Shown here piece by piece: positions 43,660-45,552 of a stretch of DNA of 64,000 nt. The stretch is from Bradyrhizobium sp. B124 (GTDB lineage Bacteria > Pseudomonadota > Alphaproteobacteria > Rhizobiales > Xanthobacteraceae). The stretch lies in NCBI RefSeq assembly GCF_038967635.1, contig NZ_CP152413.1:744001-808000 (forward strand), read 5' to 3'. The position numbers and the translations under genes are program-made. Position 1 is the first letter of the stretch. The number at the start of each line of letters is the position of its first letter. The notes beneath the pieces are model-generated. The model had not been told where the DNA came from. It searched no databases and saw only the letters and a list, made by a program, of their open reading frames with translations.

Positions 43660-44745
43660 TCAGGCCGAACGCTCCTGCAGGCCATCACGCCGCACGCTGC
43701 GCCTCGCGTCGACAGCATCGGCCAACTGCTTCAGCACGTCAGCCGTCGTCGCGAGATCGATGCAGCCGTCCGTGATGCTCTGGCCATAGGCCAGCGGCTT
43801 GCCCGGCACGACGTCCTGGCGTCCCGCGACAAGGTTGCTCTCGATCATCACGCCGATGATGCGCTGTTCGCCGCTTGCGACCTGCCGTGCGATGTCGGCC
43901 GCAACCAGTGGCTGGTTCTCCGGCTTCTTGCTGCTGTTGGCGTGGCTGGTGTCGATCATCAGTCGTGGCGCGACGCCGGCGTGGCCGAGCTCGGCGGCGG
44001 CCGCATCGACGCTTCCGGCATCGTAGTTCGGCACCCGGCCGCCGCGCAGGATGACGTGGCAGTCCTCGTTGCCCCTGGTCGCGGCGATGGCCGAACGGCC
44101 GCCCTTCGTGACCGCCATGAAATGATGCGGGTGCGACGCCGATTTCACCGCGTCCGCCGCGATCCGCACGCCACCGTCGGTGCTGTTCTTGAAGCCGACC
44201 GGGCACGACAGGCCGGACGCCAGCTCGCGATGGATCTGGCTCTCGGTGGTGCGCGCGCCGATTGCGGCCCACGAAACCAGATCGGCGATGTATTGCGGCG
44301 TCGTCATGTCGAGGAATTCGGTGCCGGCGGGCAGGCCGAGATTGTTCACGGCCGACAGCACGTTGCGTGCAAGGCGCAGGCCCTTGTTGATGTCGAAGCT
44401 GCCGTCGAGATCGGGATCGTTGATCAGGCCCTTCCAGCCGACGGTGGTACGCGGCTTCTCGAAATAGACCCGCATCACGATCTCGAGGCGGTCGGCGAGC
44501 TGTTCGCGCAGGCTGGCGAGACGCTCGGCGTAATCGACGGCCGCCGCGGGATCGTGGATGGAGCAGGGGCCGACGACGACCAGCAAGCGGTCATCGGTGC
44601 CGTTGAGGATCGCGTGGATGGCGTTGCGGGCGCCCATCACGACCCGCGTCGCCGTCAGGGTGCGCGGAACTTCCCGCATCACCTCTTCGGGCGTACTCAG
44701 CTCTTTCAATTCCTTGATGCGAAGATCGTCTGTCGTACTCAACAC
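43660..44745 (-). CDS. aroG: 3-deoxy-7-phosphoheptulonate synthase, AroG/AroF type
   Basis: 361 residues from a GTG start with AAAGGAG at good spacing. DAHP synthase condenses PEP and erythrose-4-phosphate, the entry step of the shikimate pathway. Signatures include DRLLVVVGPCSIHDPAAAVDYAERL, YFEKPRTTVGWKGLINDPDLDGSFDINKGL, GFKNSTDG, and DTSHANSSKKPENQ. It is the type I-alpha form normally inhibited by aromatic amino acids. The 160-nt leader carries an attenuator with a Tyr/Phe/Trp-rich peptide. Confidence 0.93.
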   Translation of the reverse strand: MLSTTDDLRIKELKELSTPEEVMREVPRTLTATRVVMGARNAIHAILNGTDDRLLVVVGPCSIHDPAAAVDYAERLASLREQLADRLEIVMRVYFEKPRTTVGWKGLINDPDLDGSFDINKGLRLARNVLSAVNNLGLPAGTEFLDMTTPQYIADLVSWAAIGARTTESQIHRELASGLSCPVGFKNSTDGGVRIAADAVKSASHPHHFMAVTKGGRSAIAATRGNEDCHVILRGGRVPNYDAGSVDAAAAELGHAGVAPRLMIDTSHANSSKKPENQPLVAADIARQVASGEQRIIGVMIESNLVAGRQDVVPGKPLAYGQSITDGCIDLATTADVLKQLADAVDARRSVRRDGLQERSA

Positions 44746-44781
44746 GGCTGGCTCCTTTGGAGTTCAGGACCTGCCGGCACG

Positions 44782-44805
44782 AAAAAAGCCGCCAGGTCTG
44801 GCGGC
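44782..44805 (-). terminator. Attenuator terminator upstream of aroG
   Basis: GCCGCCAG (44798-44805, minus-strand reading) pairs with CTGGCGGC (44788-44795), extended by AA/TT, and is followed by TTTTTT (44782-44787). It lies between the leader peptide and the aroG ribosome site, so it can stop transcription before the gene. Confidence 0.85.
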
Positions 44806-44900
44806 TTGTTTTGGACGTTTGCTGCAATTCTTCAGATTGAGCGCGATCCTCCTGCCGCCAGCGAGCTGTCGTAGCTAAAGTACCAAAAATAGCTGGTGGC
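44782..44900 (-). promoter_or_regulatory. Aromatic-amino-acid attenuator of aroG with alternative RNA arms
   Basis: Four arms alternate. Arm 1 GCCACCAG (44893-44900) sits in leader codons 5-7. Arm 2 CTGGCGGC (44854-44861) sits in codons 18-20. Arm 3 GCCGCCAG (44798-44805) and arm 4 CTGGCGGC (44788-44795) form the terminator. Arms 2 and 4 are identical, so arm 3 can pair with either; arm 1 pairs with arm 2 at 7 of 8 positions. Ribosomes stalled on the aromatic codons right after arm 1 would cover it and free arm 2 for antitermination. Confidence 0.75.
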
Positions 44901-44912
44901 GACGGTGATCAT
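44832..44912 (-). CDS. Aromatic-rich leader peptide of aroG (26 aa)
   Basis: A 26-codon frame whose codons 8-14 read TAT-TTT-TGG-TAC-TTT-AGC-TAC: Tyr, Phe, Trp, Tyr, Phe, Ser, Tyr. Such density of exactly the end-products of the pathway is diagnostic of a regulatory leader. A -10 box ends 7 nt before the ATG, so the message is probably leaderless, as known for the trpL leader of Sinorhizobium. There is no Shine-Dalgarno. Confidence 0.82.
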   Translation of the reverse strand: MITVATSYFWYFSYDSSLAAGGSRSI

Positions 44913-44919
44913 GGCGGGC

Positions 44920-44948
44920 TCTATACCCGACGGATATCGGCCTGTCAC
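44920..44948 (-). promoter_or_regulatory. Promoter of the aroG leader transcript
   Basis: On the minus strand GTGACA (44943-44948) and TATAGA (44920-44925) are 17 nt apart. Seven nt separate the -10 box from the leader ATG at 44912, so the start site falls at or beside that ATG. Confidence 0.7.
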
Positions 44949-44979
44949 CCCCCAAATCCGCAGGCGAGCCGGTTCGCCG

Positions 44980-45552
44980 TCAGGTGTTGCGCGCGGCCAA
45001 CGCCATACCTATCAGGGTCGCCCCGCCGAACATCAGATTGAGGCCGACCAGGAGGCCGATCGCCCAGCCCGCCGACTCCGGCAGGCCCGCGATGATGAAG
45101 AAGGCGACGACGACATCCATCAGGCCGGCGATCAGGAGCCAGGACCAGCGTCCCGACAATTCGCGGCGGTGCTCCAGCGCATACATGATGGTGGCGACGC
45201 CCTCGGCGACGAAATAGGCGCCGATCACGATGGTCAGCGTCAGCACACCCTGCATCGGACGCGCCAGCAGCACCATGCCGGCCAGCACGGCGAGCGCGGC
45301 CGAGATCAGCGACCACCAGAAGCCCGGCATGTTGCGCGCCCAGAAGGTCACGATCAGTCCGCCGATGCCTGAGATCAGGAACATCCAGCCGAGGAAGATG
45401 GTGACGGCGAGGCTCGCGAATGTCGGCACGATCATCGCCGCGATGCCGAGGATCACGAGCAGGATGCCTTCGAACAGGAATGCCTTCCAGTGTTGCTTGA
45501 CCGCGGCCTGCATCTCCGATCGCAGTCTGTCGAGATTGTTGGACAGGGTCAT
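44980..45552 (-). CDS. HdeD-family membrane protein
   Basis: 190 residues with six hydrophobic helices in three pairs, typical of HdeD/DUF308 proteins (FEGILLVILGIAAMIVPTFAS, FLGWMFLISGIGGLI, GGATLIGMALA). HdeD is linked to acid resistance in E. coli; here it is a general membrane-stress candidate. The ATG at 45552 follows GAGAG. It ends 32 bp before the aroG leader promoter on the same strand, so that promoter does not overlap it. Confidence 0.85.
   Translation of the reverse strand: MTLSNNLDRLRSEMQAAVKQHWKAFLFEGILLVILGIAAMIVPTFASLAVTIFLGWMFLISGIGGLIVTFWARNMPGFWWSLISAALAVLAGMVLLARPMQGVLTLTIVIGAYFVAEGVATIMYALEHRRELSGRWSWLLIAGLMDVVVAFFIIAGLPESAGWAIGLLVGLNLMFGGATLIGMALAARNT

Follow-up and report, generated by a model that had tools for sequence, protein, structure and literature searches.

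A predicted leaderless attenuator with tyrosine, phenylalanine and tryptophan codons upstream of the DAHP synthase gene aroG in Bradyrhizobium and related bacteria

The gene aroG, encoding a type I DAHP synthase on the minus strand of the 64,000-nucleotide stretch of Bradyrhizobium sp. B124 DNA analysed here (the window), is preceded by an aromatic-codon leader and an intrinsic terminator, and this arrangement was confirmed as a real feature. The features of the leader make it very probable that aroG is under ribosome-mediated attenuation by aromatic aminoacyl-tRNA, and it is probable, with less confidence, that the attenuator senses all three of Tyr, Phe and Trp. An attenuator of this kind had been proposed in a sequence-only reading of the locus, and that interpretation is supported in substance.

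Along the minus strand from 44948 to 44782 the element consists of a sigma-70-like promoter, a 26-codon open reading frame and a terminator, followed by aroG. The promoter (44920–44948) contains a -35 box GTGACA at 44948–44943 and a -10 box TATAGA at 44925–44920, separated by a 17-nt spacer, and the leader ATG at 44912 is located 7 nt downstream of the TATAGA box. The leader frame, MITVATSYFWYFSYDSSLAAGGSRSI followed by a TGA stop codon, occupies 44832–44912 and is predicted to be leaderless; its codons 8–14, the putative control codons at 44871–44891, read Tyr Phe Trp Tyr Phe Ser Tyr. Codons 12 and 13 of this run, UUUAGC (Phe-Ser, window 44879–44874), consist of the same nucleotides from Bradyrhizobium to some Oxalobacteraceae. 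Arm 1, GCCACCAG (44893–44900), pairs with arm 2, CTGGCGGC (44854–44861), with one A.C mismatch. Arm 2 can instead pair with arm 3, GCCGCCAG (44798–44805), to give an antiterminator that is extended (44813–44849) by pairing of GGA at 44849–44847 with UCC at 44815–44813, enclosing a small hairpin around the stop codon at 44842–44821. The other partner of arm 3 is arm 4 (44795–44788), which has the same letters as arm 2, CTGGCGGC. The intrinsic terminator (44782–44807) is formed by the 3:4 hairpin of nine pairs at 44807–44786 and a six-T/U run at 44787–44782. The promoter spacing, the ATG 7 nt further on, the 26-codon frame, the aromatic run, the coordinates of the arms, the identity of arms 2 and 4 and the terminator with six Us had all been put forward in the sequence-only reading, and direct reading of the letters confirmed each of them.

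In 57 of 60 sequences a further segment, GCCGGCAG/GCCGCCGG (44780–44761 in the window), is located 0–7 nt past the U-run and is a possible partner of arm 4. This candidate fifth arm is singly significant in 22 of the 60 and has one mismatch in Bradyrhizobium, and on both counts it is kept as an observation only.

The aroG gene itself (43660–44745) has a GTG start and an SD-like AAGGAG at 44757–44752. Its product scored 524 bits against TIGR00034 (aroFGH, cut-off 173) and 541.5 against the AroG-only model NF006723, under the cut-off of 568. The best-matching solved chains were DAHP synthases, Phe-regulated ones included, and the closest named AroG had 86% identity. The same genome, of 9.17 Mb, also encodes a type II DAHP synthase (G000:C1:235896-237209), and visual inspection of the sequence read upstream of it showed no aromatic leader.

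The chance of finding such an element was examined within the window. A terminator scan of 44500–45500 gave the 3:4 hairpin as its sole site, but 0.5 such sites were expected in shuffles of that kilobase; the hairpin alone is therefore unremarkable, and the terminator by itself was dropped as evidence. The leader promoter was not among the sites of a strict sigma-70 scan. The leader is the sole ATG reading frame of 12–45 codons in the 64-kb window with at least six aromatic codons within eight, it has a terminator less than 100 nt behind it, and 60 first-order Markov resamples of the window gave no such frame. The remaining doubt about the reality of the element was removed by its conservation in relatives.

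Conservation was analysed in 114 aroG upstream regions, comprising 30 plus 20 of the 139 genus matches, 18 from the family and 46 from wider groups, with one genome (G137) counted twice. A leader was taken as readable if it had at least four aromatic codons within eight and a terminator, and this was found in 112 of the 114 regions. The upstream region of L093 is truncated by a contig end, and its leader is probably the one matched on a different contig of the same genome; in L096 the run has shrunk to Phe-Tyr, and this locus was excluded from the 112. Phe, Tyr and Trp codons all occur inside eight codons in 108 of the 112 leaders, the other four (L097–L100, all class-level) containing Phe and Tyr without Trp, and the aromatic reading frame is kept despite residue swaps. 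The codon run is thus retained in close relatives, as the proposal had anticipated, and also beyond the genus. At 37 loci the identity of third codon positions is 0.977 in leader codons 8–26, compared to 0.802 in aroG of these loci. A search of five leader peptides against Pfam and NCBIfam gave no family matches.

The distribution of the element was determined using a covariance model, R1, built on 60 of the locus sequences. In the genus R1 matched 139 of 146 genomes, exactly the 139 that carry aroG at E≤1e-50, and the same seven genomes, of which two are only 67 and 75% complete, gave no match in either search. The element was found in 19 of 19 aroG genomes and none of the 130 others in the family sample (149 genomes), in all 46 aroG genomes plus six others in the order sample (297 genomes), and in all 10 aroG genomes plus one weak match (G742, E 0.008) in the class sample (289 genomes). 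These samples overlap partly, and many of the order and class sequences are contained in R1, so that their matches are by construction, which does not apply to the absences. Whether the leader stands next to aroG was checked in the 114 loci; G727 and G090 each have the aroG match on one contig and the element match on another. Weak matches in G404 and G039 were rejected, as each falls within a longer open frame that has no aromatic leader, and a second match in G108 is on the opposite strand, overlapping that genome's own element. The six extra genomes of the order sample comprise one chance match and five members of family f38 (G548, G389, G508, G523 and G492; loci L155–L159), in which tyrS is preceded by an element that looks leaderless, contains a run of Tyr and Phe codons (e.g. 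MIKTAATFVYFYYVTSIPAAA) and has a terminator. The tyrS gene behind it scored above the TIGR00234 cut-off in the one case tested (L155), the other four being alike by eye, and the f38 element is a candidate tyrS attenuator.

Two genomes contain a second copy of the element beside the normal one, L250 (G098:C48:62504-62633, plus strand) and L251 (G065:C54:107850-107982, minus strand). Both copies retain the promoter, the terminator and nearly all of arm 2, with one arm 2 change in L251, but their runs read RRFWHFTHR or HRFGRWTHR, His and Arg codons having replaced the Tyr codons. In both genomes the product of the gene behind has a few AroG-like residues at its start, and the rest is an Arg-rich DUF1127 protein (PF06568). 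These copies may represent either a re-coded attenuator or a relic, and they suggest that the aromatic codons decay or are re-coded once the element serves no intact aroG.

The matches away from aroG also bear on the possibility that a terminated small RNA or peptide is the main product of the element and acts in trans, in the manner of rnTrpL/peTrpL, with attenuation secondary. The leader nucleotides within the genus are near-invariant, third positions included, as might be expected of such a product, and a precedent from Sinorhizobium meliloti is outlined in PMC7298713. The extra matches examined away from aroG, however, precede tyrS or a DUF1127 gene or are due to chance, and the seven aroG-less genus genomes (the two least complete among them) contain no credible element. 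R1 gave no match in those seven at E 0.01, and an orphan leader was rejected as only weak matches were seen, the best of them (E 0.038) within an open frame. A main role in trans is accordingly considered improbable, and cis-acting attenuation of aroG is preferred.

The wider spread of the leader was examined in a named collection, in which the best 80 of 589 matched stretches were inspected. A leader and terminator were present in 45 of these best 80 aroG-like loci, including 13 of 13 that were alphaproteobacterial by title and 32 of the 67 others, and the leader-bearing genera include Burkholderia, Paraburkholderia, Caballeronia (MSAKFYFYFFWYLRPLADREG), Massilia, Rugamonas, Xanthomonas and Dyella. 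The 35 loci without a leader include Erwinia, Pantoea and Citrobacter, enteric loci being few among the best 80, as well as Undibacterium, although this genus lies inside a leader-bearing clade. Within the same 80, L189 has just 52 nt of upstream sequence and was counted as lacking a leader, and L202 and L208 have an aromatic reading frame but no terminator by the test used. A quick tree built from 95 AroG proteins requires 7 changes of the leader label, compared to approximately 28 in shuffles, and a 35-row AroG clade containing alphaproteobacterial and Xanthomonadales rows is leader-bearing throughout. The Mesorhizobium AroG proteins (L173–L175, 81–82% identity) cluster with Bradyrhizobium and f1 rows, inside another family, and this grouping hints that aroG was transferred along with the leader.

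The promoter is positioned at a nearly fixed distance from the leader start. The motif [TGC]GACA is found 34–36 nt upstream of the leader ATG in 107 of the 112 leaders and at 37 nt in one, the remaining four being without it; where two in-frame ATGs were available, in four leaders, the first was taken as the start. SD-like 4-mers precede 6 of the 112 leader ATGs (14-nt stretch) compared to 105 of 112 aroG starts (20-nt stretch). The fixed promoter-ATG distance and the missing SD support the prediction that the leader is leaderless, and agree with the earlier proposal that the element has no 5' UTR, as in leaderless trpL. The trpL, pheL and pheST leaders of Escherichia coli are SD-led. Leaderless mRNAs have been reported in general for B. 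japonicum by dRNA-seq, and no aro gene or leader peptide was found in the main text of that report (PMC4842269).

Base pairing was assessed in an alignment (A1) of 60 sequences. The seven-pair core of the 2:3 antiterminator is paired in 89.5% of cells, beyond the genus as well as within it, and the whole 18-pair antiterminator in 78.5%, compared to 23–47% in slid versions. Two of the core pairs change from GC to AU on both sides, in L116/L117 and in L031/L067/L068 (2 and 3 of the 60 sequences), while arm 4 retains G at these double changes, which indicates that arm 2 tracks arm 3 independently of the terminator. In single sequences the 2:3 pairing exceeded that of codon-shuffled tails (p≤0.05) in only 80 of 112. 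The covariation of the antiterminator as a whole is weak evidence, because its count of 10 pairs changed on both sides was reached by 123 of 500 shuffles and slid versions gave 8–11; the count of further pair types was reached by 192 of 500, these two shuffle measures being the least inflated by kinship. The extension pairs as GGA/UCC in 30 of the 60 sequences and as GGG/CCC in 16, with 6 mixed and 8 lacking one side, under a loose pattern, and it co-varies mainly between large clades.

The terminator pairing 3:4 is formed in 91.5% of cells and shows a double change in seven sequences, while the 1:2 helix is paired in 65.2% of cells across the 60 sequences, with one pair broken in 41 of these. 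Covariation in the 1:2 helix and the terminator did not exceed the kinship-robust shuffle measures (389 and 447 of 500). The three pairings expected in relatives have therefore fared differently: 2:3 and 3:4 are conserved, whereas 1:2 is only partly so and carries its A.C mismatch in the window. A structured 5' region with a terminator would also be expected of a metabolite riboswitch or T-box in which the reading frame is incidental, but the aromatic frame is conserved through residue swaps and Rfam searches returned no match at the element and none overlapping the leaders of 20 loci, the sole match at the locus being a sub-threshold microRNA inside aroG. Such a regulator is considered highly improbable, and a translated attenuator is retained as the explanation.

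The spacing between the control codons and arm 2 is narrowly distributed. Counting from the first base of the final aromatic codon, arm 2 is reached after 12 nt in 68 of the 112 leaders and after 11–14 nt in 106, a distance that would place arm 2 at about the leading edge of a ribosome stalled on that codon. When folded without a ribosome the partial transcript favoured the antiterminator and the full transcript the terminator. The MFE-only view was dropped, and ribosome footprints were masked instead. Static folds in which a 29-nt footprint was masked were calculated for 40 representatives hand-picked from the 112 leaders, and in all 40 an A site within the run gave more antiterminator pairing than one beyond it, with means of 0.68 and 0.31. 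The mean was approximately 0.7 before the run and over most of it, 0.52 at the last aromatic codon and 0.30 one codon further on. The masked fold restates the geometry in energy terms and is not kinetic proof. The spacing and the fold both suggest that a ribosome stalled on the control codons would not cover arm 2. Once the stop codon occupies the A site, arm 2 is free again in the masked fold, so termination under plenty would rest on timing or on the 1:2 pairing.

The reading frame, arms, promoter geometry, terminator, conservation and association with aroG are properties of the sequence itself, whereas the transcription start site, the stalling, the termination and the responses to the individual amino acids are inferred. 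In the proposed mechanism a ribosome would load on the AUG at or beside the 5' end and translate the leader while following RNA polymerase. A shortage of charged tRNA for Tyr, Phe or Trp would make the ribosome stall in codons 8–14, leaving arm 2 free to form the 2:3 pairing, extended by GGA/UCC and the stop-codon hairpin; this would block the terminator and aroG would be transcribed. If all three were plentiful the ribosome would enter arm 2, or finish translation and allow 1:2 to form, and with arm 2 occupied the 3:4 pairing would form and transcription would end at the U-run.

The codon usage and composition of the run bear on how many amino acids are sensed. Phe codons in the 40 representative leaders are UUU in 75 of 99 cases, compared to 42 of 314 in window genes (reading frames longer than 300 residues whose GC3 exceeds 0.75) and 6 of 96 in 16 aroG genes, while the Tyr bias is slight, with UAU in 65 of 106 leader codons, 97 of 207 in window genes and 46 of 83 in aroG. 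The UUU bias may slow the ribosome or may leave the run unpaired. A working attenuator might answer to just one or two amino acids, with the remaining codons as passengers of a slow run, and the skew of the leader Phe codons to UUU would suit this explanation, as would the four class-level leaders without Trp and the observation that among the 45 leaders from the best 80 of 589 matches the best eight-codon stretch lacks Trp in 14 and Tyr in 1. The Phe-Tyr-Phe leader aroR of Corynebacterium glutamicum is likewise said, in the account given by PMC11802643, to respond to Phe and not to Tyr. Trp is, however, retained in 108 of 112 alphaproteobacterial leaders while neighbouring positions vary, and a response restricted to one or two inputs is considered rather unlikely, sensing of all three remaining the preferred reading.

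When the aroG leader was compared with known systems, one close likeness was to the leaderless trpL (rnTrpL/peTrpL) of S. meliloti, also an alphaproteobacterium, in which the transcript is described as beginning at the AUG of the leader frame, as is predicted for the aroG leader, and a terminator/antiterminator switch operates (PMC7298713, PMC10117765). A difference is that trpL, as outlined in these sources, controls trpE(G) through Trp codons, while here the peptide is unrelated, the codons are a mixture of Tyr, Phe and Trp and the gene encodes a DAHP synthase, so that the trpL-type pattern of Trp codons before trpE is absent. The trpL peptide of Bradyrhizobium itself is MSTAVAPARLWWRTS. A leader-peptide attenuator of a DAHP synthase gene is also provided by aroR, the leader of aroF in the actinobacterium C. 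glutamicum (PMC11802643, PMC4046766), although the residues quoted there are Phe-Tyr-Phe without Trp. In Acholeplasma, which belongs to a different clade, a candidate uORF beside a terminator, uORFC-13-1, precedes the DAHP synthase gene aroF, but it has a ribosome-binding site and only Phe codons are noted in the entry given (PMC8632094). The E. coli trpL, pheL and pheST leaders share ribosome-mediated attenuation, each being tuned to one amino acid according to the summary in PMC11802643. The sequence-only reading had called control of the first shikimate step by three amino acids through one peptide unusual; leader attenuators of DAHP synthase genes do have precedents in aroR and uORFC-13-1, while the Trp component stands apart, Trp not being mentioned in the parts of those reports that describe the two leaders. 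No description of an aroG attenuator in these proteobacteria was found in the open-licence literature; Vitreschak et al. 2004 and the Merino predicted-attenuator website (cited in PMC1173090) fall outside that scope and could list it.

The aroG leader thus appears to be a widespread new form of a known attenuation mechanism, its novelty being the candidate three-amino-acid input. We give an even chance to the full account, in which one leaderless attenuator forms a three-aminoacyl-tRNA OR gate at the entry to the shikimate pathway, has spread together with aroG through the alphaproteobacteria, Burkholderiales and Xanthomonadales, and has a sensor run that can be re-coded, as in the two His/Arg copies before a DUF1127 gene and the five Tyr/Phe versions before tyrS. 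In E. coli control of the first step is described as served by the repressors TyrR and TrpR (PMC5343134). If the account is true, the leader would place the first shikimate step under transcriptional control in many members of the alphaproteobacteria, Burkholderiales and Xanthomonadales, one short peptide would integrate three amino acids, and leaderless attenuation would extend beyond trpL.
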